Shown in pieces: positions 6,064 through 20,465 of a DNA stretch of 64,000 nt; positions within the stretch are counted from its first letter, which is position 1; the number at the start of each line of letters is the position of its first letter. Made by a program: the position numbers and the translations under genes. The stretch lies in NCBI GenBank assembly GCA_021850325.1, contig JAJZMF010000003.1, positions 1 through 64,000 on the forward strand, read 5' to 3'. Under the pieces are notes generated by a model that saw only the letters and a list, made by a program, of their open reading frames with translations, did not search any database and was not told where the DNA came from. The stretch comes from Actinomycetes bacterium. Lineage in GTDB: Bacteria > Actinomycetota > Acidimicrobiia > Acidimicrobiales > Palsa-688.

Positions 6064-6999
6064 GTGCCAAACAATCACGCCGCTCAGCCGGAGGAAGACC
6101 TTGTCCGCCTCTACCTGAACGACATCGGTAAGCACTCCCTGCTCACCAAGGACGACGAGGCCCGGTTGGCTCAGGCCATCGAGGCGGGACGTGCTGCCAG
6201 GGCCGAGCTGGTCTCGGGCAAGGTCCTCACAGCTCCTCGCAAACGCGAACTGCGACGCGCCCAGAGGGAGGGGGACGAGGCGGCGGAGACCTTCGTCAAG
6301 GCCAACCTGAGGCTCGTGGTGTCCATCGCCAAGAAGTACCAGGCGGCCGAGCTGCCCCTGCTCGACCTGGTGCAGGAGGGCAACCTCGGCCTCATGCACG
6401 CCGTGGAGAAGTTCGACTGGCGCAAGGGCTTCAAGTTCTCCACCTACGCCACCTGGTGGATACGCCAGGCCATCACCCGGGGGATAGCGAACACCGGCCG
6501 TACCGTGCGGCTCCCCGTGCACGCCGGTGACCTCCTCACAAGGGTGACCAAGGCCAGGGGACGCCTCGAGGGCCAACTGGGCCGGCGCCCCACCTCTGCC
6601 GAGCTGGCCCACGACCTCGAGCTCGAGGAAGAGAAGGTCATCGAGATCCTCCGGCACGCGGCCGAGCCGCTGTCGCTGTCCGAGCCACTGCGTGAGGACG
6701 GTGACGCCGAACTGGGTGACGTCGTGGAGGACCGCTCGGCCATCTCGCCCTTCGAGGCGGCGGCAGCGTCGCTGCTCTCGGGCGAGGTGGGCAAGATGCT
6801 GGTCGCCCTGGACGAGCGGGAGCGGGAGATCCTGAGACTGCGCTTCGGGCTGGACCGGGGTGAGCCCCGCACCCTGGACGAGGTGGGGGAGCACTTCAAC
6901 CTGACCCGGGAGCGCATCCGCCAGATCGAGGCCCGGGCCATGTCCAAGCTGCGCCACCCCTCGACCGACCGGGGGGCGCGGGAGCTGCTCACCACCTAG
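6064..6999 (+). CDS. Group 2 RpoD-type sigma factor (SigA/HrdB-like)
   Basis: Sigma-70 family protein of 311 residues that recognises housekeeping-like promoters. Region 1.2 is at residues 10-45 (DLVRLYLNDIGKHSLLT), region 2 at about 75-145 (LPLLDLVQEGNLGLMHAVEK; FSTYATWWIRQAITRGIA), region 3 at about 150-225 and region 4 at about 240-300 (LRLRFGLDRGEPRTLDEVG; LTRERIRQIEARAMSKLR). It lacks the long acidic N-terminus of the primary sigma factor, so it is probably an alternative group 2 member. The GTG start follows GAGGACG. It stands alone and converges on the lipoprotein gene at 7059. Confidence 0.92.
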   Translation: MPNNHAAQPEEDLVRLYLNDIGKHSLLTKDDEARLAQAIEAGRAARAELVSGKVLTAPRKRELRRAQREGDEAAETFVKANLRLVVSIAKKYQAAELPLLDLVQEGNLGLMHAVEKFDWRKGFKFSTYATWWIRQAITRGIANTGRTVRLPVHAGDLLTRVTKARGRLEGQLGRRPTSAELAHDLELEEEKVIEILRHAAEPLSLSEPLREDGDAELGDVVEDRSAISPFEAAAASLLSGEVGKMLVALDEREREILRLRFGLDRGEPRTLDEVGEHFNLTRERIRQIEARAMSKLRHPSTDRGARELLTT

Positions 7000-7058: not shown

Positions 7059-7529
7059 TCAGGTCATGGAGCTGAAGCGGATCGGCAGCCTGGGCAGCAC
7101 GAAGCTGAAGAGCAGCTTGCGCTGGGTGGTCACGAGCACGATCGCCGCCTTGCCGGACACGCCGTTCGGCGCCCCTGCGACCTGCCCGGAAGGGAAGTCG
7201 CCCGTGAAGGCGAAGGCGCACACCTGGAGGTTGGCCGCCGGGGGTTGGAAGTGGGCACCGGGGTCGGTGGGGAAGCGATGGCCCACCAGGCGGGCCATCA
7301 TCCGGGGGGGCACCAGCTTGACCCCGCTGAAGTGGTAGCTGTCCTTGGGCGCGTTGAGGGCCGCGGTCGCCAGGGGCAGGTTCTCGTAGCAATCGGCCAG
7401 GCCGACGGGGGGTGTGGGCCTGGTGCAGGCGGCAAGGCCGAGGCCGGCCACCACGAACGAGGTGAGAAGAGCCGAGGCCCGTGCCCGGCGCCGGGCAGCG
7501 GCCTGGGCGGGCGCCAGGTCAGGTCTCAT
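7059..7529 (-). CDS. Small lipoprotein coupled to the relaxase/YbhN unit
   Basis: 156-residue predicted lipoprotein of unknown function. It has a basic N-region, a hydrophobic stretch and a lipobox ending LGLAAC, giving a mature protein of about 120 residues anchored outside the membrane. The ATG at 7529 follows GGAGGGAAC and overlaps the stop codon of the preceding gene as ATGA, so translation is coupled. The mature part has a possible disulfide pair (ADCYENL and QVCAFAF). No known domain was recognised. Its place as third gene behind a relaxase makes a role in the same surface or DNA-transfer machinery possible, but this is inference. Confidence 0.8.
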   Translation of the reverse strand: MRPDLAPAQAAARRRARASALLTSFVVAGLGLAACTRPTPPVGLADCYENLPLATAALNAPKDSYHFSGVKLVPPRMMARLVGHRFPTDPGAHFQPPAANLQVCAFAFTGDFPSGQVAGAPNGVSGKAAIVLVTTQRKLLFSFVLPRLPIRFSSMT

Positions 7530-8779
7530 GTTCCCTCCAGCTCCTCCGACAAGCTCGCCTCCGGTTGGTAGCCCGAGCCCGCTCCCACCGCCCGCGACGG
7601 GCGGGGCCGCCCGGAACGACCCGTCATGAACGTCTGCGGGGTGGGGGCTTCCACAAGGGCCACGGTCCCCAGTGGCCCCGGCCCGTCCATCCCGGCCGCC
7701 ACGAGGTCCGCCACCGCGCCGCCGGGGGTGGCGGGGGCCCCCTCGTAGGTCGCCGGCGCAGGTGCCCTGCGCCCGGCCCGGGCCGAGCGGGCCAGGGCCA
7801 GGTAGGAGGCCCCGCCCACCGGTAGGGGCACCCAGAAGCTCACCACCCGGTAGAGCAGGACGGCGGCCACCGTGGCGGCGCGCCCCCCGCCGAAGGCCAC
7901 CAGGGCCACGGTGAGGCTGCCCTCGACCACGCCCAGGCCCCCAGGTGTGATGGGCAGGTTCACCGCCAACTGCCCACCGCAGTAGGCGAGGAGGAGGCCC
8001 TGCCAGGGAACGGGGGCACCCACTGCGATGAAGGCGAACATCAGGCAGGCGCCGTCGGTGAGCCAACTGGCCGTCCCGTAGGCCAGCGCCAGGCCCCAGC
8101 GCCTCCTGGTCGGCGCCACCGACTGCATCCGGCCGACCAGGCGGGCCAGGGGCCCGCTGAGCTGGCCGTCCCGGCCCAGCCGGCCCTCGGCACCGACCAC
8201 GCCGGCCAGGGTCAACCGGTAGATCTGGCTGCGCCTGTTCCACGCCAGAGCCCCCAGCACGGCCACCAGCCAGACGCCCACGATGGCCCCCACGAGGTCG
8301 AGAGCGCTACCCGTGGAGGCGGCCATGGACAGGCCGAGGCCGGCCAGCGCGCTGAGCGTGCCCAGCGAGACGGCGGCCGTTGCCACCACGACCCATCCGG
8401 CCAGGACGTCGTCTGCCCCGAACATGGCGAACTGGCGGAACTGGTACAGGCCGGCAAAGGCGGTGCCCGCCGGAAGAGCGGACTGGATCGTGGTGCCGGC
8501 CAGGGTCACCAGCGTCACCCTCCGCAGGGGCGGCGACACATCTCCTGCTCGCAGGAGGGACCTTTGCAGGGCGGCCATGAAGGCGTAGGAGGCGACCTCG
8601 GCGGCCGCCGCCAGGGCCAGCCAGGGCCAGCGGAGCTGGCCCAGGAAGGCCGTGGCCCCCGACAGCTCGCTGGTCTTGCCTGCGATGAACCAGGCGGCCA
8701 GGGCGACGAGCACCAGGCCGACGAGGAAGCGCACGGGCCGCCAGTACCGCAGGAGGTCCTGCTTGGACAGCCGGGTCAC
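7526..8779 (-). CDS. YbhN/lysylphosphatidylglycerol synthase-type membrane protein (UPF0104)
   Basis: Integral membrane protein of 417 residues with about seven or eight hydrophobic segments. The family signatures are SALPAGTAFAGLYQFRQF in the first half and LPITPGGLGVVEGSLTVALV near residue 305, the hallmark of the flippase-like LPG synthase transmembrane domain. Such proteins are linked to lipid modification or transport; the catalytic LPG synthase domain is absent here. The GTG at 8779 overlaps the relaxase stop as GTGA, and its own stop overlaps the lipoprotein start as ATGA. A Pro/Gly-rich cytoplasmic tail of about 80 residues is unusual. Confidence 0.85.
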   Translation of the reverse strand: MTRLSKQDLLRYWRPVRFLVGLVLVALAAWFIAGKTSELSGATAFLGQLRWPWLALAAAAEVASYAFMAALQRSLLRAGDVSPPLRRVTLVTLAGTTIQSALPAGTAFAGLYQFRQFAMFGADDVLAGWVVVATAAVSLGTLSALAGLGLSMAASTGSALDLVGAIVGVWLVAVLGALAWNRRSQIYRLTLAGVVGAEGRLGRDGQLSGPLARLVGRMQSVAPTRRRWGLALAYGTASWLTDGACLMFAFIAVGAPVPWQGLLLAYCGGQLAVNLPITPGGLGVVEGSLTVALVAFGGGRAATVAAVLLYRVVSFWVPLPVGGASYLALARSARAGRRAPAPATYEGAPATPGGAVADLVAAGMDGPGPLGTVALVEAPTPQTFMTGRSGRPRPSRAVGAGSGYQPEASLSEELEGT

Positions 8780-11208
8780 CAGGGCATCATCGCGCCGTGA
8801 CGGCTTGTTGCCTGTGCGGGCCCCGGCTCGCGGCCCGGGTGAGGCAGGGCCGGCCCGGAGCGCGGCGCGTGGGCGCCGGCCATGCGCTCGAAGGCGCACT
8901 CGGCCACGGTAGCCGCCCAGCGGCGTCGGGCCGCGGCGCCCAGGGGCCGTGGCCCGGCTCGTTGCAGCATGCTCTCGTCCGGCCAGCCGACGGCCAGTTG
9001 GCGGGCGGCGGCCCGGTCCCGGGCGTGCCAGCCCGCCGGCCCGAGCGCAGGAGCGCCCGGCCCGGCGACGGTCACCACGGCCGAGGTGACCTGGGCCGAG
9101 CGTGCCCCCAGGTGCTCGGGTGCCCCCAGCACGACGAGGGGTTCCGAGGGGCCGAGGTGGCGCAGGTAGGGCACGGTGGTGGCATGGCCGTGCCCGAGCC
9201 GGTCGGCCTCGCCCGGGCCCAGCCTGTGCAGCACGGCCCCTGAGGGCAGTTCCCAGCGCACGGCCAACCAGCTGCTGCCCAGCTCGACCACCCGTCCCCT
9301 GGTGGCAGCGGGGACCGGCCCCACCCGGCGGAGGGCCAGCACCGGGCTCCCGGGCCGGTAGACCCGGTCGCCGAGGGCGAGGCCGGGCCCGGGGAGGTCC
9401 CGCGCGGCCATCTCATTGAGGGCGGCTGCCTCGTCGGCACCGTACGCGACCACGAGCGCCCGGCCTGTCCCGTCTGCGCCATGCCCCACCCCGGCCTGTG
9501 CTGCGTAGGCCATGGCCTGCCACCCGGTGGCAGCTCCTCTGACTGCCAGCCCCTCGACCTCGTGGACCGGGTGGCCTCCGGTGCTCCCCGGCCACTGGTG
9601 AGGCCCGGGCCCGGTGGCAGACCGCTCGGCCAGCTCCTCGAGGCCGAGCGAGCACGGCCGGCCCCGGCCTGCGGCAGTGCCCCCCAACACCAGTACGAGC
9701 TTGGTCGAGCTCCGCCCGGCTGCCCGGGCCAGACGGGCCAGGCCGGCCGGCCCGACCCGGTCGGCGGCGTCCACCACCAGGACCCGTGAGCCGGCCGCGG
9801 TGCCGGGACGGCCCGGGCCCGGGGCGAGCAGGGGCCCCTGTCTGGTGCCGAGGCCCGTCAGCGCCTGCCAGCGCCGCAACGCCAGAGCGGATGGGGTGGC
9901 CACCGTCACCTCGGCCCCGGCCGCTTGCCAGACGGCACGAGCGGCGTCGATGCACGCGGCCTGGGCCAGCCATGGACCGGGGGCGACGACCGAGATGGCA
10001 TGGCCGGAGCAGGCCAGTTGGAGGGCGGCGCTCCAGGCGGGCCCCGAGCAGCCGAGGTAGCCGAGCTCCAGCTCAGCGATCTCCGGGCTGACCTCTGCCA
10101 GGTGGGCGAACTGGCCCCGGGTGGCCAGCTCGACCAGCTCGGTGTCGTAGCGGCCCGCCAAAGGGGTGCTGAGGGGCGCGGCCCCGCCACCCCCCGGGCG
10201 TTGCCAGGCCAGCGCGGCGGCGTCCACCCAGCGGGCCGCCTCCCCCAGGTCCAGGCCGTCGGGGCAGGTCTCCGCCAGGGCGGCCCAGACATCGGGCCGG
10301 CCGAAGGCCGATGACCGGTCGGCCAGCCTGGCCACCACGGCCCCCTCGGCGGGGGGTGGCCCGGGCAGGCAGGGGAGCCGGGCCGCCACCGCCAGGAGGG
10401 TGGCCCCCCCGTCCACGACCGGGGCCGGCCGGCCAGGGCCCGAGGCGGCGCCCCGGGTGCCGGCCTGGGCCGTCCGGAGCGCACCAGCCCCGGGCGTACC
10501 GGACCTCGTTGCCGCGGCGCGCACTGCCAGGGACCGGCCGGAGAGGGCAGCGCGGGCGGGGCCGGCGACGCCGGCCAGCTCGGCCAGGCCCCCGGGCAGG
10601 ACCTCCCACGCCAGGGCCAGCCCGGCGCTGCGCACGCCGGAACGCAGCGCCAGTTGGAACGCGGCCCCGGCCGCCTCCCGCCAGCGCCACAGGTGGTTGC
10701 CCGCCAGGCAGCCCCAGCGGTCGTCCGGCTGCAGCCCCAGGTTGACCAGCACGGCATGGGTGTGCAGGTGGGGGTGGCCGTCAGCGTTGGTGCGGTGCTC
10801 GAAGGCCGCCACCACGAAACGGGCCGGCACGTCGGCGCCGCGGACGCGCACCACGGCGGCCTCGGCCTCGAGCAGGCCCAGTGCTCCCGACACGGCCTGG
10901 CGGTAGGCGCCCAGCAGCCGGCCCGGTGCGTCTGCACCCCCGGCCACGAGCAGGGAGACGGACTTGGGGGCGGCGAACACGAGGTCCCAGCCCTGGCGCT
11001 TGCGCAGACCGGGGCGGCCGGTGAGCGGGAGCCCGGTCGAGGGCCGGCAGCCGGTCAGTAGGGCGGCCAGGTCCCTGCGCCCTGCCGGTGTGCCAGGCCC
11101 GTCGTGGAGGCCCAACGGGCCTACGGCGCCACCCTCCCAGCTCCAGTGCACCGCCGACCGCTGCCAGTAGCCCACTTGCCGGGCTGACGCACTTCCGATC
11201 ACCAGCAC
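8776..11208 (-). CDS. MobF/TrwC-family conjugative relaxase with degenerate helicase domain
   Basis: Relaxases nick conjugative DNA at oriT and carry it into the recipient. Residues 1-230 show the MobF hallmarks: a candidate nucleophile Tyr14 (GYWQ), GWDLVFAAPKSVSLL at 73-87 and the metal-binding histidines HPHLHTH at 145-151. The rest should be an AAA/RecD-type helicase, but where a Walker A is expected the sequence reads GCSGPAWSAAL, and the Walker B position reads VLVVDAADRVG. ATPase activity is therefore doubtful. At 810 residues it is shorter than TrwC/TraI-type relaxases. The GTG start has no clear ribosome binding site. Divergent secretion genes begin 122 bases away. Confidence 0.85.
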   Translation of the reverse strand: MLVIGSASARQVGYWQRSAVHWSWEGGAVGPLGLHDGPGTPAGRRDLAALLTGCRPSTGLPLTGRPGLRKRQGWDLVFAAPKSVSLLVAGGADAPGRLLGAYRQAVSGALGLLEAEAAVVRVRGADVPARFVVAAFEHRTNADGHPHLHTHAVLVNLGLQPDDRWGCLAGNHLWRWREAAGAAFQLALRSGVRSAGLALAWEVLPGGLAELAGVAGPARAALSGRSLAVRAAATRSGTPGAGALRTAQAGTRGAASGPGRPAPVVDGGATLLAVAARLPCLPGPPPAEGAVVARLADRSSAFGRPDVWAALAETCPDGLDLGEAARWVDAAALAWQRPGGGGAAPLSTPLAGRYDTELVELATRGQFAHLAEVSPEIAELELGYLGCSGPAWSAALQLACSGHAISVVAPGPWLAQAACIDAARAVWQAAGAEVTVATPSALALRRWQALTGLGTRQGPLLAPGPGRPGTAAGSRVLVVDAADRVGPAGLARLARAAGRSSTKLVLVLGGTAAGRGRPCSLGLEELAERSATGPGPHQWPGSTGGHPVHEVEGLAVRGAATGWQAMAYAAQAGVGHGADGTGRALVVAYGADEAAALNEMAARDLPGPGLALGDRVYRPGSPVLALRRVGPVPAATRGRVVELGSSWLAVRWELPSGAVLHRLGPGEADRLGHGHATTVPYLRHLGPSEPLVVLGAPEHLGARSAQVTSAVVTVAGPGAPALGPAGWHARDRAAARQLAVGWPDESMLQRAGPRPLGAAARRRWAATVAECAFERMAGAHAPRSGPALPHPGREPGPAQATSRHGAMMPW

Positions 11209-11210
11209 AC

Positions 11211-11241
11211 TTGAAACACTATCAGAGCTATGGAATACTAT
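11211..11241 (+). promoter_or_regulatory. Candidate promoter for the secretion operon
   Basis: TTGAAA (11211-11216) and TACTAT (11236-11241) lie in a short AT-rich island between the divergent relaxase and pilin-like genes. The 19-base spacer is longer than ideal. It would leave a leader of about 80 bases before the first gene. Confidence 0.4.
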
Positions 11242-11330
11242 GAAATGTCCCTGGCGCTCGTGCCCAGCGGTCCTCGGCCTCCCCTGGCCCTCACCTGACC
11301 GGCCCAGCGGCCCCCGAGCAAGGAGCGTCC

Positions 11331-11681
11331 ATGTACCCGAGCGTGCTGACCCTCAGCCAACCTGTCGAGCGAGCAGTGGCCCGTCTGGCCAGTGGCTCCT
11401 CGACCGGGATCAACATCAACCCGGCCCAGGGAGGCAACCTGCCCGGGGACCAGGTGCTGACCAACCTGGCCAGCGGGGTCGGGCACTGGGCCCTGCTGGC
11501 GTCGATCGTGGGGGTGATCGTCGGCGGGGTCATGTGGGCGTTCGGCCACTTCTCGCACAACTACCAACAGTCCTACAGCGGCCGGCGCGGCGTGGTCGTC
11601 TCGGGGCTGGCGGCTCTGCTCATCGGGGCGTCCCAGCAGATCGTCGGCTTCTTCTTCACCCAGGGCACCCAGGTCCATTGA
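11331..11681 (+). CDS. Small two-helix membrane protein (DUF6112/VirB2-TrbC-like)
   Basis: 116-residue protein with two hydrophobic segments, at about residues 50-72 (HWALLASIVGVIVGGVMWAF) and 85-108 (GVVVSGLAALLIGASQQIVG). This size and topology match the pilin-like first gene of actinobacterial SCO6880-type secretion loci. It would act as a membrane or pilus subunit. The ATG follows AAGGAG. Its stop codon overlaps the TTG start of the next gene as TTGA, so the two are translationally coupled. Assignment rests on size, topology and neighbours, since no diagnostic motif was recognised. Confidence 0.7.
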   Translation: MYPSVLTLSQPVERAVARLASGSSTGININPAQGGNLPGDQVLTNLASGVGHWALLASIVGVIVGGVMWAFGHFSHNYQQSYSGRRGVVVSGLAALLIGASQQIVGFFFTQGTQVH

Positions 11682-12910
11682 ACGTCCACGCACTGACGCG
11701 CACCGGGAGCCCGCCCGTCCCCCGCCGGGCGGTCTCCCGGTTGCTGACCGGCACCGGGGCCGCTGTGGCCGGTGGCCCTCCGCTGCTCCCGCACCCGACC
11801 GGCAGGGTGGGGGGCGCCGCAGGCCTGTTCGGCCTGGGCTGGTCGGCTCTGGCCAAGGCCATCACGAACGCGTTCTTCTCCACCCTCTTCGGCCTGGAGG
11901 CGGCACTGGTCCGTTCCCTGGTGAGCGAGGTGATGTCGACAGCCGTGCCGGCGACGACCGCTCTCTCCCTGGCCCCCGGCTCCTGGTTCGCCTCGGCTGC
12001 CGGCACCCTGGCGCCGGTGGCCGAGGTGCTGGTCGCGCCCTTGCTCTTTGCGGCCACCATAGGCGCCGTCCTCCGTCGTGACGTCCACCGGCTGGCCCGG
12101 GCGTGGGGCGTGGCCCTGCCTGCCTCATTGCTCGGTGCTGCCGCCCTGGTCCAGCTGTGCCGGGTCGGGCTGCAGGTGACGGACGCCATGACCGGGCTGA
12201 TCGAAGCGTCGGTCTACCCGGGCCTGGGCCACCTGTTCGCCCGGGTGGTTGGCCTCAGTTTCGGCGGTGCGGCCGGCTTCGCCGGGGCCCAGCTCGTGCA
12301 GGTGGTCTTCGGCCTGCTGCTCGTGGCGGGAGGCATGGCCCTGTGGCTGGAGATGGTCCTGCGCTCGGCTGCCATCGAGCTGGCTGTCTTCTTCATGCCC
12401 CTCGCCCTGGCCGGGCTGGTCTGGCCGGCCACGGCCCACTGGGCCCGGCGCCTGGTCGAGGTCCTGGTGGCCCTCCTTTTGGCCAAGCCCGTGGTGATGG
12501 CGGCCCTCTGCCTGGGGGCCAGAGCCCTGGCCGGTAGCCAGGTCGGAGTGGAGAGCGTCGTTACCGGCAGCGCCGTGCTGCTCATGGCGGCGTTCGCTCC
12601 GTTCATGCTCCTCCGGCTGGTGCCGGTGGTGGAGGTGACGGCCATCGCCCACCTCCAGGGCGCGGCCCGCCAGCCCTTCCATGCCGCCTCCCGGACGGCG
12701 CAGCGGGTGGCCTCCATGGCTGCAGCGGGGATGGGCGGCTCCAGCCAGATGGGCGGGCCACCTGGTGGGGGTGGTGCTGCGCACTCGGTGGCCACGGGGC
12801 CCTCGGCCGGTGCCGAGCAGCTGCTGGCCCGGGTGAGCGGCTCGGAAGGGCCCGGCCCGGCCGGCCCCCGGCCCGGCACCAGCGCGGGCATCGGGGCGAG
12901 CCTTGGCTGA
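11678..12910 (+). CDS. Polytopic TrbL/VirB6-like (SCO6881-type) secretion protein
   Basis: 410-residue integral membrane protein with roughly six hydrophobic helices between residues 40 and 330. A soluble Gly/Ser/Pro-rich tail (MGGSSQMGGPPGGGG) follows. This is the topology of the channel-forming TrbL/VirB6 component of type IV secretion systems and of SCO6881-like proteins. The TTG start at 11678 overlaps the upstream stop. The same frame is open further upstream to 11240, but that part lies over the pilin-like gene and reads as Arg/Pro-rich shadow. Its end overlaps the next gene by 8 bases. Confidence 0.75.
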   Translation: MNVHALTRTGSPPVPRRAVSRLLTGTGAAVAGGPPLLPHPTGRVGGAAGLFGLGWSALAKAITNAFFSTLFGLEAALVRSLVSEVMSTAVPATTALSLAPGSWFASAAGTLAPVAEVLVAPLLFAATIGAVLRRDVHRLARAWGVALPASLLGAAALVQLCRVGLQVTDAMTGLIEASVYPGLGHLFARVVGLSFGGAAGFAGAQLVQVVFGLLLVAGGMALWLEMVLRSAAIELAVFFMPLALAGLVWPATAHWARRLVEVLVALLLAKPVVMAALCLGARALAGSQVGVESVVTGSAVLLMAAFAPFMLLRLVPVVEVTAIAHLQGAARQPFHAASRTAQRVASMAAAGMGGSSQMGGPPGGGGAAHSVATGPSAGAEQLLARVSGSEGPGPAGPRPGTSAGIGASLG

Positions 12911-14354
12911 GAACGGTTACCGGTTTGAGCCCCTGCACCGCAAGGGCCCGCTCCTGGGGCTCGGTTGGCCTCAGCTCGCGGTCCTGGCCCTGTGCGCGCT
13001 GTCGGCTGTCTCGTTCCTGAGAGCCTGGCCGAGCGCCGTGGGCGTGGTGGCCGCCCTGGCCGTGCTCGCCCTGGGGGGGATGGCGTGCGGGTCCCGGGCC
13101 GGCCGGCCCCTGCTCGGCTGGGGGCTGGTGGTGGCACGCTACTGCGCCCGGTCACGGGACGCCCGGGGCGGCCCGCCGGCATCCACGGCCATGGTGCAGG
13201 GGGAGGGGGCAGAGCGTCGCGTGGTGCTCGTCCACCGCCGTGCCCCCCGGCCCCTGGAGGGCCTGGCCTCCGACGTGGAGGTGGTCGAGGTCGGGGGCGA
13301 CGCTCAGGGCGGCCCCCTGGGCGCCGTCTGGGACCGGGGGCAGGGCACGCTCGCCGCGGTCCTGTCCACGACCGGCCCCGGCTTCAGCCTCGAGGACCGG
13401 GTGGACCAGGAGCGCCGGCTGGCGGCCTGGGCCGGCGTGCTCGAGTCGGTGGGCGGCAGCGGCAGCGGCCTCGCCCGGCTGCAGTGGTGCCAGAGGGCGC
13501 GCCAGGACGACGGCGGGGATCTCCTACGTCGCGTGCTCGAAGGAGGCCGACCCGGCGCAGCGGGTTGCCCCGGGCCGCCGCTCCTGGACCAGCTGCGCCA
13601 GGACCAGCGGCGCCTGCTGGAGCTCGTGGCCCGGGACGCCTGGCGGCACGAGTCGCTGCTCGTCGTGGCGGTGCCCTGTCCCGGCAGGCGCCCCGCTCTG
13701 GTCGAGCGGGCGGGACGGGCGCTGCGCACCCAGGTGGGCGGCCTGCGGTCCCAGCTCCTGGCCACCGGCCTGTACTGCGACGGGCCGCTCGGTGCAGCCA
13801 CAATGGCCGCCGCCCTGCGTTCGGGCCTGGGCAGCGGAGCCGTCGGGCCGCCGGGCCGCCTCGCTGTGCGCGAGGCCTGGTCGGCGGTGGCGGTGGGGGA
13901 GCTGTGGCACCGTACCTTCTGGGTTGGTGAGTGGCCACTGAGCCATGTGGCGCCGGACTTCCTGAGCCCCCTGCTCAGTGCCCCCGGGGCGCGGTCCTTC
14001 TCGGTGGTCATGAGGCCGTTGCCGGCCGAGCGGGCAGCCCGTGATGCCGAGTCCTCCCGGACCTCTCAACTGGCCGACGCCCAGCTGAGGGCTCAGGGCG
14101 GGTTCCTGGAGACGGCGCGCCAGCGGCGGCGAGCCGAGGCGGTCGAGGGGCGCGAAGCCGACCTCGCCGATGGCCGGGTGGCGTTCGAGTTCGCCGGGTA
14201 CGTGTCGCTGTCGGCCCAAGGTGAGGCCGCCCTGGAGGAGGCATCAGCCGAGCTGGTGGGCTCGGCGGCACGCGCCGGCCTCCGCCTGTACCCCCTCTAC
14301 GGCCAACAGGCTGCGGCCCTCACCTGGACGTTGCCCCTCGGACGGGGCCTGTGA
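12903..14354 (+). CDS. SCO6880-like type IV secretion protein
   Basis: 483-residue protein with two adjacent N-terminal transmembrane helices (about residues 20-65: LGWPQLAVLALCALSAVSFL and VGVVAALAVLALGGMACG), followed by a large cytoplasmic domain. This matches the SCO6880/PrgI-type family of actinobacterial conjugation loci, whose soluble part resembles the VirB4 N-terminal domain and lacks ATP-binding motifs, as here. The gene uses TTG at 12903, within the end of the preceding gene and after GGGGCGAG. A 9-bp GC hairpin follows its stop. It probably works with the VirB4-like ATPase encoded at 16766. Confidence 0.75.
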   Translation: MAENGYRFEPLHRKGPLLGLGWPQLAVLALCALSAVSFLRAWPSAVGVVAALAVLALGGMACGSRAGRPLLGWGLVVARYCARSRDARGGPPASTAMVQGEGAERRVVLVHRRAPRPLEGLASDVEVVEVGGDAQGGPLGAVWDRGQGTLAAVLSTTGPGFSLEDRVDQERRLAAWAGVLESVGGSGSGLARLQWCQRARQDDGGDLLRRVLEGGRPGAAGCPGPPLLDQLRQDQRRLLELVARDAWRHESLLVVAVPCPGRRPALVERAGRALRTQVGGLRSQLLATGLYCDGPLGAATMAAALRSGLGSGAVGPPGRLAVREAWSAVAVGELWHRTFWVGEWPLSHVAPDFLSPLLSAPGARSFSVVMRPLPAERAARDAESSRTSQLADAQLRAQGGFLETARQRRRAEAVEGREADLADGRVAFEFAGYVSLSAQGEAALEEASAELVGSAARAGLRLYPLYGQQAAALTWTLPLGRGL

Positions 14355-14371
14355 GCGGTCCCGGCCGGCGG

Positions 14372-14403
14372 CCCCGCGCCTACGGGCGGGCGAAGGCGCG
14401 GGG
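14372..14403 (+). terminator. GC-rich hairpin after the SCO6880-like gene
   Basis: CCCCGCGCC (14372-14380) pairs perfectly with GGCGCGGGG (14395-14403), with a 14-base loop and no following T-run. It may end or attenuate the first secretion transcript. The 160-base gap continues with an AT-rich island (14411-14452) that probably holds the promoter of the next gene, and a small CCCGC/GCGGG hairpin at 14456-14470. Confidence 0.45.
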
Positions 14404-14514
14404 GAAGGGCGCTCACAGAAATGTTTCAGGTTGTTCACACTTCGATCACAAGCGCCCCGCCCTCAGCGGGAAAGCTCAAGACAAGAAGTGCAACCCACGC
14501 AGGGAGGAGAGGAA

Positions 14515-16683
14515 ATGACCCGACACCGGCCGAAGCACGACCGGCGCCTGCCGCTGCGGCTCAGTGCGGCCTTGTGCGGTGCCGCGGGATTGGCTGCGTT
14601 CCTGGTGCCCGCGGTGACTGTCGCCCCGGTGCCGGCCGCGGCTGTGCTGGCTGCGGCTGTGCCGGCTGCCCGTACCGCCGGCCTGAGCGGTACCAACTGC
14701 ACGGCCCAGGTGGTGGGCGACGCCCTGGCCCGGACGGGCTGGCAGGCCAGCAGCAACACGTCGTCCAGTTCCGCCGATGCACCCTGGCACGCGCTGGACG
14801 GCTCGCTCTCCACGCGTTTCAGCAGCGACCACACCCAGGCGGCCGGCATGTTCCTGCAGCTGGACCTGGGTGCGGCGCAGACCTTCGACGAGCTGTCTCT
14901 CGCCGTCCCCGGTTCGCCCACGGACTACGCCCGGGGCTTCGAGGTCCAGGTGTCCAACAACGCCAGCTCGTGGGCCACCGTTGCCTCCTGCACGGGCGTG
15001 GGCGTCCAGCAGGTGGTGAGCTTCCCGGCCCAGACCGACCGGTACGTGCGCGTCGTGGTGACGGCGGCCGACGCCAGTTACTGGTGGTCGGTGGACGAGC
15101 TCAACCTGTACGGGCCGGTCAACTGCGGGGCCTCGGCCAGCGGTTCTGCCTTGGACCGGTCGCACTGGGCTGCGACGGCCAATGTGCCCTACAACAGTTC
15201 CTATGCCCCCGCCCTGGCCCTGGACGGCAACCTGGCCACCCGCTTCAGTACCGGGGCCGTCCAGCAGGCCGGGCAGTACCTCCAGGTGGACACGGGCTCG
15301 GCTCACATCTTCGACGAGGTTGCCCTGTTGGCACCGGGCTCTCCCACCGACTACGCCCCGGGCTACAGCGTCCAGATCTCCAACGATGCCCGGTCATGGA
15401 CCACGGTGGCGAGCTGCACGGGCACCTCGGCAGTGGAGGTCACCTCGTTCCCACCGCAGTACGCACGCTACGTGCGGGTCATGGTCACCCAGCCGGACGC
15501 CAAGTACTGGTGGTCGGTGGACGAGCTGTACCTCTACAGCAACGTGGCACAGCCCACCTCCACGACCACGACCTCGACGTCCACCACGACCACGACCACC
15601 GTGCCGTCCTCCACCACCCAGCTTTACTCCTCGGCCGACCCGGTGGCCGCGGGTGCCCAGGTGACCTACACGGCCCGGGTGACGCCCAACCCGGGTGGCG
15701 GGTACGTGAACTTCCTGAGCGGAGGCAACTCGTTGCCCGGCTGTGCCCAGGTGGCGTTGAACACGTCCAACGGGCTGGCCACCTGCACGACGAGCTACGA
15801 CGCGGCAGGCCGCTACAGCGTCCAGGCCGTCTACTCGGGCCGGGCCTCGGTGGCGGGCAGCCCTGCCTACCGGCCCTCGGCCTCGGGCGTCTATGCCGAG
15901 GTGGTCAACCTGCCCCCGCCCGGTTACCTGCTGCTCAGCCGTGACGGGCAGGTCTTCGCCTCCGGGGCCGCGCAGGCTCTGGGCGGGATGACCGTCAACC
16001 AGTCCTCCGGGCCGGCGGTGAGCATCGCCGCCACCCCCTCGGGGCGTGGCTACTGGTTGGTGAGCGCCAACGGCACCGTGGCCGCCTTCGGGGACGCCAG
16101 GTTCTACGGCGACCTGCCCGCCCTGGGCAAGCACGTCCACGACATCGTGGCCATCGCGGCCACCAGTGACGGCAAGGGTTACTACCTGGTGGGCGCCGAC
16201 GGCGGGTTCTTCACCTTCGGCGACGCCACCTTCCACGGTTCGCTACCGGGCATCCATGTCCACGTCCACGATGTGGTGGGCATGGTGGCGAGCCCCGGCG
16301 GTGCCGGCTACCTGCTGGTGGGCGCCGACGGCGGTGTGTTCAACTTCGGGCGGGCGCGCTTCTACGGCTCGCTCCCGGGCATCCACCGTCACGTCCACGA
16401 CGTGAGGGCCATCCTGCCGTCCTCGACGGGCACGGGCTACGTGCTCGTGGGGGCGGACGGCGGGGCGTTCGTGTTCGGTACCGGGGTGAGGTTCCTCGGG
16501 TCGCTGCCCGGTGAGGGCGTCCGGGTGGACAACGTGGTCGGTATCGCCCTCACCCCGGACAACGGCGGTTACTGGATGGCCGGTGCTGACGGGCGGGTGT
16601 ACGGCTTCGGCGATGCACAGGCGGGCGCCGTGCCCAACGGCGTGACCTCCAACCTGCCTGTGGCAGCCATCGCAGGTACCTGA
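14515..16683 (+). CDS. Secreted discoidin-domain and six-repeat propeller-like protein
   Basis: 722-residue exported protein. A signal peptide (hydrophobic residues 15-50) is followed by two F5/8 type C (discoidin) domains at about 60-205 and 205-345, each ending in YWWSVDEL-LY. Then come a Thr-rich linker (about 350-365), an Ig-like domain (about 365-465) and six repeats of about 43 residues starting with GY. Discoidin domains usually bind carbohydrate or lipid, so it is probably a cell-surface adhesin. There is no LPXTG or C-terminal membrane anchor, so attachment is unclear. GGGAGGAGAGG precedes the ATG. It interrupts the secretion genes and is flanked by hairpins on both sides. Confidence 0.85.
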   Translation: MTRHRPKHDRRLPLRLSAALCGAAGLAAFLVPAVTVAPVPAAAVLAAAVPAARTAGLSGTNCTAQVVGDALARTGWQASSNTSSSSADAPWHALDGSLSTRFSSDHTQAAGMFLQLDLGAAQTFDELSLAVPGSPTDYARGFEVQVSNNASSWATVASCTGVGVQQVVSFPAQTDRYVRVVVTAADASYWWSVDELNLYGPVNCGASASGSALDRSHWAATANVPYNSSYAPALALDGNLATRFSTGAVQQAGQYLQVDTGSAHIFDEVALLAPGSPTDYAPGYSVQISNDARSWTTVASCTGTSAVEVTSFPPQYARYVRVMVTQPDAKYWWSVDELYLYSNVAQPTSTTTTSTSTTTTTTVPSSTTQLYSSADPVAAGAQVTYTARVTPNPGGGYVNFLSGGNSLPGCAQVALNTSNGLATCTTSYDAAGRYSVQAVYSGRASVAGSPAYRPSASGVYAEVVNLPPPGYLLLSRDGQVFASGAAQALGGMTVNQSSGPAVSIAATPSGRGYWLVSANGTVAAFGDARFYGDLPALGKHVHDIVAIAATSDGKGYYLVGADGGFFTFGDATFHGSLPGIHVHVHDVVGMVASPGGAGYLLVGADGGVFNFGRARFYGSLPGIHRHVHDVRAILPSSTGTGYVLVGADGGAFVFGTGVRFLGSLPGEGVRVDNVVGIALTPDNGGYWMAGADGRVYGFGDAQAGAVPNGVTSNLPVAAIAGT
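15922..16683 (+). repeat. Six in-frame protein repeats of about 43 residues
   Basis: Each unit begins GY-L, contains ADGG-F-FG and usually F-GSLPG, and ends with a short hydrophobic strand (DVVGMVAS type). Units 2-5 are the most alike; units 1 and 6 are divergent end repeats. Six such units could close a six-bladed beta-propeller. DNA identity between units is moderate, implying an old duplication. Confidence 0.75.
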
Positions 16684-16704
16684 GCCCCGGGGCGGCCAGG
16701 AGCG

Positions 16705-16748
16705 GGCCCCCGCCCCCGCCCGCCGCCCCGCCCGGGCGGGTGGGGGCC
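16705..16748 (+). terminator. GC-rich hairpin before the VirB4-like gene
   Basis: GGCCCCC (16705-16711) pairs with GGGGGCC (16742-16748), and further inner pairing of CGCCCG with CGGGCG is possible. It starts 22 bases after the discoidin protein stop and ends just before the AAAGGAG of the next gene. It may be a terminator or a structured leader; there is no T-run. Confidence 0.4.
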
Positions 16749-16765
16749 TACCAAAGGAGAGATGC

Positions 16766-18118
16766 ATGCCTCGCCTCTACGGCCTCCCACCCGCCCACCG
16801 GGGCACCAGCGCCCAGCTGGGCGCCCTCTACCCCTTTGTCGTGCCCGCCCCACTGCCTTCTGGCTCGTGCTACCTCGGCCAGGAGGCATCGGGCGGGCTC
16901 TTCTGCTTCGACCCCTGGGACTGTTACGGAGCGGGGACGCTCACCAACCCCAACATGGTGGTGCTGGGCCAGATCGGCCGTGGCAAGTCAGCCTTCGTCA
17001 AGAGCTTCCTGTGGCGCCAGTACCTCCAGGGCCGTCAGTGCTGGGCGTTGGACCCCAAGGGGGAGTACGGGGCACTGGCCGGGGCGGTGGGGGCGGTGCC
17101 GCTCCGGCTGGGCCCGGGCCTGGGCCTCAGGCTCAACCCGCTCGACCTGGGCTCCCACGCCCAGGACCAGGGCCACAGGGGAGGCGGCCAGGTCCCCGGC
17201 ACCGGCGCGGGCGGGGTGCGCAGCGCCCACCAGCGCCGTTCCGAGCTGCTCGGAGCGCTGTTGGCCAGCTCCCTCGGGCGTCAGCTCCTGCCCGCCGAAC
17301 GGGCGGCAGTCGACGTGGCGCTGGCGGCGACCGAGGCTCTGGGAGCGGTGCCCACCCTGGGCCAGGTCGCGCACGAGCTCATGTCGCCCGGGCCCGGCGC
17401 GGCCCGGGACCTGGGCACCGACGTCGAAGGGCTGAGGACGGACGGACGCCAGGTCGCCCTGGAGCTGCGCCGCCTGGTCCATGGGGACCTGGCCGGCATG
17501 TTCGACGGCCCGAGCTCGCCCGGTGCCGGCCTCGGCCAGGGCATGGTCGTGCTCGACCTGTCGGCGCTGTACTCCTCACCCGCCCTGGGCCTGCTGATGG
17601 TGTGCGCCCTGGGGTGGTTGCAGAGCGCAATGGGCGGGGCGGGTCAGGACGGCACCAGGAGGGTGGTGGTGGCGGACGAGGCCTGGGCGGTCCTGTCCCA
17701 CCTCCCCAGTGCCCGCTGGCTCCAGGCCACCTTCAAGCTGGCCCGCTCCTACGGCGTGGCCAACGTGGCCGTCGTGCACCGGGCGTCGGACCTCCAGGCG
17801 GTGGGGGCGGAGGGTTCCGAGCAGCAGCGCCTGGCCCAGGGCCTGCTTGCCGACGCCGAGACCAGGGTCGTCTTCGGCCAGGCCCCCGGGGAGGCGGCCC
17901 AGGCGGCAGCGCTGCTCGGGCTCTCCCACACCGAGCAGCTCCTCGTCGGCCGGCTCCCCCGCGGCGCGGCCCTCTGGCTGGTGGGTGAGCGCCGCTACCT
18001 GGTCCGCCACATGCTCTCGGAGAGGGAGCGGCTACTGGTCGACACCGACGGGGCGATGCGTGCCCGAGCCGGTGGGCCCGGCCGGGCCGAGGAAGGGACG
18101 GCGGGAGCTCGAGGGTGA
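16766..18118 (+). CDS. VirB4/TraC-like secretion ATPase
   Basis: 450-residue P-loop ATPase. Walker A is GQIGRGKS at residues 68-75. WALDPKGEYGALA follows at about 92, a hallmark of VirB4/TraG/HerA-type ATPases, and Walker B is RRVVVADEAWAVL at about 296-308. It corresponds to the ATPase half of VirB4; the SCO6880-like protein would supply the N-terminal half. It would power substrate export or pilus assembly at the cytoplasmic membrane. AAAGGAG precedes the ATG. No separate VirD4-type coupling protein is present, so this ATPase might also engage the relaxase-DNA complex (inference). Confidence 0.85.
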   Translation: MPRLYGLPPAHRGTSAQLGALYPFVVPAPLPSGSCYLGQEASGGLFCFDPWDCYGAGTLTNPNMVVLGQIGRGKSAFVKSFLWRQYLQGRQCWALDPKGEYGALAGAVGAVPLRLGPGLGLRLNPLDLGSHAQDQGHRGGGQVPGTGAGGVRSAHQRRSELLGALLASSLGRQLLPAERAAVDVALAATEALGAVPTLGQVAHELMSPGPGAARDLGTDVEGLRTDGRQVALELRRLVHGDLAGMFDGPSSPGAGLGQGMVVLDLSALYSSPALGLLMVCALGWLQSAMGGAGQDGTRRVVVADEAWAVLSHLPSARWLQATFKLARSYGVANVAVVHRASDLQAVGAEGSEQQRLAQGLLADAETRVVFGQAPGEAAQAAALLGLSHTEQLLVGRLPRGAALWLVGERRYLVRHMLSERERLLVDTDGAMRARAGGPGRAEEGTAGARG

Positions 18119-18297: not shown

Positions 18298-19668
18298 ATG
18301 GCTGTGGCCGGGGCGCAGGGCGCTCGGCCGGGCGGAGCGCGGCTGCCGGCGCGGGCGCGCCTGGCCGTGACGGCCGGCAACGGGCTGGCCCACCTGTCGC
18401 GTCTGGTGGGCCTGGGCTCGGGCTCGGTCGTGGGCGGCCACCTGGTGCTCGCCGTGGACCCCTCTGCCCTGTCGCACCTGGCCCGGGGGCGGCGGGTCAT
18501 GGTGGTCTCGGGCACCAACGGCAAGACGACCACGACCCGGTTGCTGGCGGGAGCGCTGGAGGCAGCGGGCGGGACCGAGGTGGTCACCAACCTGCAGGGT
18601 GCCAACCTGTCGACCGGTGTGGCTGCAGCTCTGGCCGCCGGCCGGCCCGACCTGCCCGCCGTGCTCGAGGTGGACGAGATGTGGTTGGACCGGCTGGTAG
18701 GCGACCTGCGGCCCGAGGTGGTCGTGCTGCTCAACCTCAGCCGCGACCAGCTCGACCGCAACAACGAGGTGCGCCATGTGGCGCAGCGTTGGCGCCAGGC
18801 CTGCCAGGCGCTGGCGCCGGGCGCGGTCGTGGTGGCCAATGCCGACGACCCGTTGGTGGCCTGGGCGGCCATGGGCGCCGGCCGGGTGGTGTGGGTGGGG
18901 GCCGGCCTGGGCTGGCGCAACGATGCCGCCGGGTGCCCCGCCTGCGGGGCCTCCGTGGCATTCGGCGAGGACGGTCACTGGGCGTGCGGCGGTTGCGGGC
19001 TGTCCCGTCCGTTGCCCGAGGTGCGGGTCGAGGGCGAGGGCCGGGGGGTGGCGGCCGGCGTCGTCGTCCGGGGCCCGGACGGGGCCGACAGCCGGCACCC
19101 CCTGGAGCTGGAGCTGCCTGGGCGCTGCAACCGGGCGAACGCGGCCGTCGCCCTGGCCGCGCTGGTGGCATGTGGGTACGACCCGGGCCCGGCCCTGGGG
19201 GCCATGGCCCGGGTGCGGGAGGTGGCGGGCCGTTACGCCCGGGTGGAGCACGCAGGGGTCACGGCCCGGCTGCTGTTGGCCAAGAACCCAGCCGGCTGGG
19301 CCGAGGTGTTCGACATGCTGGCGCCCGCCCCCGGCCCGGTCGTGGTGGCGGTCAACGCCCGGACGGCAGACGGCCACGACCCTTCGTGGTTATGGGACGT
19401 CGAGTTCGAGCGGCTGGCGGGCCGCCCCGTGGTCGCCTCCGGCGAGCGCTACCTGGACCTGTCCGTCCGTCTCCACTACGCCGGGGTCGGCCACCAGGGT
19501 GTGGAGGGCCTCTCGGCCGCCCTCAGCGCGGCCGGGGGGCAGGTGGTGGACGTGGTGGCGAACTACACCGCCTTCCACCAGCTCCTGGCCGAGCTGCGCC
19601 GGGCCGGGGAGGCGGGCGCGCCGGGAGCAGGCGGTCTGGGAGCGGGCGGGCCGGGAGCGGGCCGGTGA
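18298..19668 (+). CDS. murT: Lipid II isoglutaminyl synthase subunit MurT
   Basis: Mur-ligase-like subunit that, with GatD, amidates the alpha-carboxyl of D-glutamate in the peptidoglycan stem peptide of lipid II. The 456-residue protein has the P-loop SGTNGKTTTTRLL near residue 75, VDEMWLDRLVGDL, LLNLSRDQLDR and NADDPLV. It also has the MurT-specific zinc ribbon (CPAC and CGGC around residues 218-240) and the C-terminal DUF1727 region with NARTADGHDPSWLWDVEFE. Its stop overlaps the gatD start as GTGA. The tail after residue 440 is low-complexity. Confidence 0.93.
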   Translation: MAVAGAQGARPGGARLPARARLAVTAGNGLAHLSRLVGLGSGSVVGGHLVLAVDPSALSHLARGRRVMVVSGTNGKTTTTRLLAGALEAAGGTEVVTNLQGANLSTGVAAALAAGRPDLPAVLEVDEMWLDRLVGDLRPEVVVLLNLSRDQLDRNNEVRHVAQRWRQACQALAPGAVVVANADDPLVAWAAMGAGRVVWVGAGLGWRNDAAGCPACGASVAFGEDGHWACGGCGLSRPLPEVRVEGEGRGVAAGVVVRGPDGADSRHPLELELPGRCNRANAAVALAALVACGYDPGPALGAMARVREVAGRYARVEHAGVTARLLLAKNPAGWAEVFDMLAPAPGPVVVAVNARTADGHDPSWLWDVEFERLAGRPVVASGERYLDLSVRLHYAGVGHQGVEGLSAALSAAGGQVVDVVANYTAFHQLLAELRRAGEAGAPGAGGLGAGGPGAGR

Positions 19669-20465
19669 CCGTCTCGTGCGTCTCGGTCGCCCTGGTGTAC
19701 CCCGAGCTGCTCGGCACCTATGGCGACGGCGGCAACGCCACCGTGCTGGCCCAGCGCCTGCGCTGGCGGGGCCACCCGGCGGAGGTCGTCGTGGTCGGGC
19801 CAGGCGGCCCCTTGCCGGCCACCTGTGACATCTATGTCGTCGGCGGGGGCGAGGACCTGCCTCAGAGCCTGGCGGCGCGGAGGCTGCTGGAGGCGGCCCC
19901 CCTCCACCGGGCGGTGGACGCCGGGGCGGTGGTGCTCGCCGTGTGCGCCGGGCTCCAGGTGCTGGGCGAGAGCTTCGTGGGCCCCGACGGCAAGCCCAGT
20001 ACAGGCCTCGGCCTGCTCGGTTGCGTGACCACCAGGGGCCGGGGGCGCAGGGCCGTGGGCGAGCTGGTCGTGGAGCCGTCGGCTCGCTGGAGCGCCCAGG
20101 GCCTCACGACCTGCAGCGGCTTCGAGAACCACGGCGGGGTGACCGAGCTGCTGCCCGGCACAGAGCCGGTGGGCACGGTGCGCGTCGGGCTGGGCAACAA
20201 GGACGGCTCCGTCGAGGGGGCCGTGAAGGGCCGGGTCTGGGGCACCTACATGCACGGCCCGGTGCTCGCCCGCAACCCGGCGCTGGCTGACCTGCTGCTG
20301 TCCTGGGTGGTGGGCGAACTGGCCCCCCTCGACGACACCCTCCCCCTGGCCCTGAGGCAGGAGCGCCTGCGCAACGGGCCGGCCGAGCGCTACCCCGGAC
20401 GGGGACGCGCCCGGGCCGGCCTCGACCTGTTGGCCCGGGTGGCGGGCCGGGGGTGGGGCCGGTGA
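19665..20465 (+). CDS. gatD: Lipid II isoglutaminyl synthase glutaminase subunit GatD
   Basis: Class I glutamine amidotransferase subunit (266 residues) that supplies ammonia to MurT. Visible features are VYPELLGTYGDGGN at the N-terminus, YVVGGGEDLPQ, the nucleophile elbow VLAVCAGLQVLGESF with the catalytic cysteine, the TTCSGFENHGG segment and YMHGPVLARNP with the catalytic histidine. The GTG start overlaps the murT stop, and its own stop overlaps the next GTG, so three genes are translationally chained. The same frame is open far upstream, but that part is a shadow of murT. Confidence 0.93.
   Translation: MTVSCVSVALVYPELLGTYGDGGNATVLAQRLRWRGHPAEVVVVGPGGPLPATCDIYVVGGGEDLPQSLAARRLLEAAPLHRAVDAGAVVLAVCAGLQVLGESFVGPDGKPSTGLGLLGCVTTRGRGRRAVGELVVEPSARWSAQGLTTCSGFENHGGVTELLPGTEPVGTVRVGLGNKDGSVEGAVKGRVWGTYMHGPVLARNPALADLLLSWVVGELAPLDDTLPLALRQERLRNGPAERYPGRGRARAGLDLLARVAGRGWGR

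Follow-up and report, generated by a model that had tools for sequence, protein, structure and literature searches.

A compact locus in the 64,000-nucleotide stretch of DNA analysed here (the window) appears to encode a domesticated, vertically inherited conjugation machine with a MobF relaxase, most likely moving the cell's own DNA between cells; we give this reading a probability of about 0.5. Its domestication is well supported; its function, including DNA as the substrate, the chromosomal origin of that DNA and the direction of transfer, we infer. The window lies within contig C26 of a 3.18-Mb genome (95% complete, 49 contigs). Machines for conjugation belong, almost without exception, to mobile elements, and a literature search whose coverage excluded most subscription journals returned no report of a type IV secretion system (T4SS) in Acidimicrobiia.

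Core genes frame the locus, as the initial annotation had recognized: a sigma-70 factor gene on the left (positions 6064–6999, plus strand; Pfam sigma70 regions), with flagellar genes further left, and murT and gatD on the right (18298–20465, plus strand; GATase_3, 5.7e-30). Gene starts derive from a simple frame-composition caller combined with homology. Between these flanks, the gene for the MobF relaxase (8776–11208, minus strand; Pfam TrwC, 2e-40; NCBIfam MobF, 5.7e-37, above the cut-off) is divergent from a plus-strand operon. Along this strand lie, in order, the genes for a VirB2/TrbC-like (DUF6112-like) pilin of 116 amino acids (11331–11681; profile match at 7e-5, below the cut-off), a VirB6/TrbL-like (SCO6881-like) membrane channel (11678–12910; profile at 3e-8, below the family cut-off, and orthologs), an SCO6880 family protein (12903–14354; NF042935, 5.8e-55), a secreted 722-amino-acid protein with F5/8C and Ig-like Pfam domains and orthologs in the genus (14515–16683), and the C-terminal ATPase of VirB4 (16766–18118; profile matches, and the solved VirB4 structure 4ag5 at 1.4e-24). 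The profile matches thus agree with the earlier description of a MobF relaxase facing a DUF6112-like, TrbL-like, SCO6880-like and VirB4-like series; the four T4SS genes of that series stand, and the F5/8C gene between SCO6880 and VirB4 had gone unmentioned. Within what had been called the relaxase unit, the relaxase holds, and the two leftmost genes encode a small lipoprotein (7059–7529, minus strand; no Pfam family matched) and a flippase-like LPG_synthase_TM (UPF0104) protein (7526–8779, minus strand; PF03706, 3.8e-27). Neither is a T4SS gene, yet both are syntenic with the locus throughout the family, with orthologs at the equivalent position.

These genes supply the core of a conjugative T4SS of the MPF_FATA type, namely a VirB4 ATPase, a VirB6/TrbL channel and a VirB2-like pilin, the last two assigned through weak matches to profiles and through their place in the gene order. 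SCO6880 would correspond to VirB3/PrgI plus the N-terminal part of VirB4. The VirB4 motor motifs are invariant, with Walker A (GxxGxGKS) and DEAWA both kept. The pilin is conserved in 24 aligned loci, and its structure model consists of two helices at low confidence (pLDDT 65). A VirB8/TcpC-like protein (PF12642 profile) was found in 0 of 33 genomes, the Bacillus subtilis control giving the only match; a divergent homologue could escape this profile. The F5/8C protein carries two F5/8C domains, an Ig-like domain, repeats and a signal-like N-terminus of its own; its gene is a genus-specific insertion, with orthologs at that place only within the genus. In another family genome (G004; L024:8936-11218), an acyltransferase/SGNH gene unrelated to the F5/8C gene is inserted between SCO6880 and VirB4, and several sister genera carry a D12-class adenine DNA methyltransferase gene between the sigma factor and the lipoprotein (L033:12251-13300, L037:16740-17810, L040:1605-2678).

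Orthologs of VirB4, at about 50–70% identity, are encoded in 27 of the 32 family genomes. The remaining genomes are G008, G009, G011, G015 and G024; among them, G009 and G024 have the locus VirD4 adjoining murT or gatD, G024 also keeps the sigma–relaxase link, and G008 lacks both VirB4 and gatD. Where contigs are sufficiently long to judge, the order sigma, lipoprotein, flippase and relaxase, followed by pilin, TrbL, SCO6880, VirB4, in some cases VirD4, murT and gatD, is conserved apart from small insertions. As read from the tables, the sigma gene is linked to the left part in about 22 genomes, and gatD to VirB4 or VirD4 in about 22. The sigma gene, 91–97% identical within the family, keeps its linkage with the locus across sister genera, as do murT–gatD; both flanks have different neighbours in the other families inspected. 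The locus had been suggested to lack mobility features, and our comparisons bear this out for those looked for: no tRNA lies at the locus, no convincing att-like repeat pair spans it, and no integrase is among the genes identified in it.

Selection and descent point the same way. Values of dN/dS (NG86) for the locus genes are mostly 0.10–0.43, with 0.07 in one saturated pair, and their dS resembles that of flanking genes (for G001–G002, 0.43–0.50 against 0.48 for murT). T4SS genes and flanking genes have correlated pairwise distances (r 0.77–0.91, permutation p 0.0005); for comparison, gatD and murT correlate at 0.88, and the very slow sigma gene gave just 0.23. No premature stops occur in the orthologs examined; G022 has its VirB4 split in two, which may be an assembly error. 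The VirB4 proteins of the family form a single branch (SH-aLRT 86), separate from ICE-like VirB4 copies (40–46% identical) that are distributed patchily in Acidimicrobiales. Most of the genomes are MAGs, the trees are single-gene and mostly quick, and family codes are anonymous. Because the position is fixed, selection is purifying, distances track those of the flanking genes and premature stops are lacking, domestication of a conjugation machine in the chromosome is, in our judgement, close to certain. Domestication had been one option of the initial annotation, and the comparison of gene order, flanks and dN/dS that it set beforehand gave a fixed position with purifying selection; the patchy, plasmid-like distribution that it had named as contrary evidence was not seen. 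Its other option, a relic, is not supported in view of purifying selection and uninterrupted reading frames.

Turning to the relaxase, Y14, H138 and a PHxHxH motif at 146–151 are invariant in 18 aligned locus relaxases; GWD and PKS residues do not vary either, and the region of the relaxase His triad (H147/H149/H151) is kept, as expected of a TrwC-type HUH domain. By target length, the AlphaFold model (pLDDT 77) aligns to the TrwC relaxase with a TM-score of 0.71, and a fold search retrieved TraI at 7e-19 and, with weaker scores, RecD2/Pif1 helicases. The nickase domain is under stronger constraint than the rest of the relaxase in four of five pairs. At the position of the second catalytic tyrosine of TrwC, the locus relaxases do not carry tyrosine; other MobF relaxases from family genomes have both YY pairs. 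The Walker A motif GxxGxGKS/T occurs in 0 of 19 locus relaxases, three of which are truncated by contig ends, and is kept in all three of the other MobF relaxases used as a control. Judging from its sequence, the helicase domain has lost its ATP motif and is nonetheless maintained, since the remainder of the relaxase outside the nickase domain shows a dN/dS of 0.26–0.43. With a dead helicase and no second tyrosine, classical MobF transfer and termination would be impossible unaided.

No VirD4 is encoded at the locus in genera g1, g3, g9 and g16, which make up the window's sub-clade. In most sister genera, VirD4 (PF02534, E about 1e-43 to 1e-47) lies directly after VirB4 or about 4 kb on; this protein belongs to the DNA-transfer family and keeps the VirD4 motor motifs. 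The earlier statement that a coupling protein is missing therefore stands for the locus and the sub-clade and fails for most sister-genus loci and for the genome, which encodes two VirD4-type ATPases away from the locus, neither orthologous to the locus VirD4. The one that we call group B (G000:C38:3618-4847; L060:3486-5537) has GKT and LLDE motifs, lies next to genes of trp biosynthesis in the seven genomes retrieved (also L061-L064, L070, L076) and is confined to the window's sub-clade, that is, to exactly the genera without VirD4 at the T4SS locus. The other, group A (G000:C42:2111-3343; L065:1907-3547), is an orphan widespread in the family, with neither relaxase nor T4SS genes in its neighbourhoods (L065, L066-L069, L073, L077). 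In the tree, neither group A nor group B clusters with VirD4 of the locus. Group B as a relocated copy of the original locus VirD4 is not supported, as it forms a separate branch. Given the VirD4 of sister-genus loci and the other VirD4-type ATPases of the sub-clade, the implied idea of a machine that works without a coupling protein is not supported.

Within the divergent intergenic region lies an AT-rich element (11209–11248, strand not assigned) in which TGAAA-type repeats recur at intervals of about 10 bp. In 19 of 63 loci, the stretch before the pilin gene has exact TGAAA pairs spaced at 10 bp; the rate in control windows is 0.4%, and no pairs at other spacings from 5 to 18 were found upstream of the pilin in the 63 loci. 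An 18-mer of the window's repeat copy occurs once in the genome at up to three mismatches. By its sequence and position, this element is a candidate operator or promoter, possibly also an oriT, and may be bound by a response regulator or similar protein. Its reading as a relaxase-specific oriT is weakened, because the repeats before the pilin are common to loci with and without a relaxase (many of L100-L179). In G025, a short tandem repeat with a unit like GGGATCCGCCCGTCCATT lies between the relaxase and pilin genes (L078:1284-1498).

Related machines extend beyond the family. Named VirB4 matches come from MAGs labelled Acidimicrobiales, Acidimicrobiaceae or Actinomycetes and from the strain Acidiferrimicrobium sp. 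IK, which leads us to place the window in Acidimicrobiales. Among 80 named loci, 38 outside the window's family have a pilin–TrbL–SCO6880–VirB4–VirD4 block adjoining a histidine kinase gene, in most cases with genes for a response regulator and seryl-tRNA synthetase (serS) coming next; the kinase/regulator pair beside these relaxase-less loci shows no more than a resemblance to SenX3/RegX3. Relaxase matches occur in 10 of the 80, all in the window's family; fixed loci more commonly have no relaxase. Since the machine is retained without a relaxase in related lineages, relaxase-dependent DNA export is not its sole use. In Salsipaludibacter albus (L149), a related T4SS outside the fixed sites is accompanied by ParA-like, transglycosylase and type ISP restriction genes and is possibly a mobile relative.

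Across the order, in 396 genomes with a completeness of 85% or more, the VirB4 class, delimited by our own choice of at least 47% identity or at least 305 bits, is present in 73 genomes, comprising 18 family codes and three exceptions, and ComEC in 233. ComEC is absent in 70 of the 73; G093, G103 and G334 alone have both. In G093, one VirB4 copy adjoins a MobF relaxase, and no fixed flanks were found in the stretches read from these three genomes. In the window's family, ComEC (PF03772) was detected in 0 of 32 genomes, and it is absent in many other families of the order; genomes with neither ComEC nor the T4SS also exist. Treated as independent contrasts on the sigma-gene tree, ComEC and the T4SS gave at most two well-supported cases and no significance; the pattern of exclusion is suggestive and confounded by descent.

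In component families and gene order, the locus matches the actinobacterial MPF_FATA-type modules of plasmids and ICEs (SCO6880, SCO6881, VirB4, VirD4 and MobF). It differs from them in occupying one chromosomal site across the family without mobility genes, in the dead helicase of its relaxase and in the loss of VirD4 from the locus in the window's sub-clade. The best plasmid match to VirB4, in Iamia, is 46% identical; plasmid matches to the relaxase are likewise more distant, and no plasmid record matches 80% of VirB4 or of the relaxase in one place. Helicobacter pylori ComB and the Neisseria gonococcal genetic island are chromosomal T4SSs for DNA uptake or release; both are diderm systems with outer-membrane parts, and the gonococcal island is not fixed in its family. 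The locus shares their chromosomal location and differs in being of monoderm type and family-fixed. The archaeal Ced/Ted systems, which are chromosomal and domesticated, import DNA with a VirB2–VirB6–VirB4 core and no relaxase (PMC9905601). Such a chromosomal, vertically inherited core is likewise found here, a likeness of gene set; unlike Ced/Ted, the locus keeps a relaxase, and its lineage keeps VirD4-type ATPases. In Patescibacteria, chromosomal T4SSs mostly without a relaxase are thought to serve epibiotic roles other than conjugation, comEC homologues are present, and VirD4 is often distant from virB4 (PMC12102498). The locus resembles these in being vertically kept, chromosomal and of monoderm type with VirD4-type genes away from virB4; it differs in its relaxase and its lineage.

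We propose that the locus encodes a minimal monoderm T4SS with a VirB2-like pilin, a VirB6-like channel, an SCO6880 and VirB4 motor and its own MobF relaxase. The single tyrosine of the relaxase would nick a chromosomal site, and the relaxase would pilot the strand. A VirD4-type ATPase would dock the relaxase; the one serving the machine would be encoded behind VirB4 in sister genera and, we infer, would come from elsewhere in the genome in the window's sub-clade. VirB4 and SCO6880 would power assembly and transfer via the TrbL channel and pilus, and a host helicase would be needed to unwind the strand, because the relaxase helicase lacks its ATP motif. This DNA-exchange reading is favoured because the catalytic tyrosine and histidines are invariant in 18–19 relaxases, the TrwC/TraI fold is recovered, the VirB4 and VirD4 motifs are kept, sister-genus loci include VirD4 and the families concerned lack ComEC.

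Among the alternatives, a machine for DNA import or scavenging, analogous to archaeal Ced or H. pylori ComB, could have replaced ComEC, with the relaxase an accessory of one family. Such a role would suit the VirB2–VirB6–VirB4 core, which is the Ced/Ted gene set (PMC9905601), the greater frequency of relaxase-less fixed loci and the lack of ComEC in lineages with a fixed T4SS. VirD4 and the relaxase are, however, export-side parts, the catalytic residues of the relaxase are still constrained in the window's family, and few independent contrasts underlie the ComEC pattern; we consider import rather unlikely. Secretion of effectors or surface proteins by a repurposed T4SS, with the relaxase or its dead helicase as a scaffold and the F5/8C protein as a possible surface partner, seems to us about as improbable. 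It has a precedent in the relaxase-less chromosomal T4SSs of Patescibacteria, with roles beyond conjugation (PMC12102498), and a secreted F5/8C protein is indeed encoded inside the locus; against this, that gene does not extend beyond the genus and its product carries a signal-like N-terminus of its own, no cargo gene in common emerged, and the nickase residues are kept.

A recently integrated or decaying ICE, stripped of its mobility genes, would account for the conjugation-derived nature of all the parts, for the absence of VirD4 from the window's locus and for the patchy ICE-like copies in the order. The family-wide fixed site, purifying selection, uninterrupted orthologs and lack of a tRNA or att-like repeats make this very improbable, and we reject an ICE or relic on the grounds of synteny and selection.

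A broader proposal, which we advance tentatively and regard as doubtful, is that in much of Acidimicrobiales ComEC-type transformation has been replaced by a vertically inherited resident conjugation machine, Hfr-like in the one family with a relaxase and Ced-like in others, which have none. If the main reading is true, a core-genome machine that kept its nickase, lost the helicase and exchanged the coupling protein would exhibit the steps of domestication. It would also offer a testable hypothesis for how genes are exchanged in Acidimicrobiales, many of whose families have no ComEC channel.
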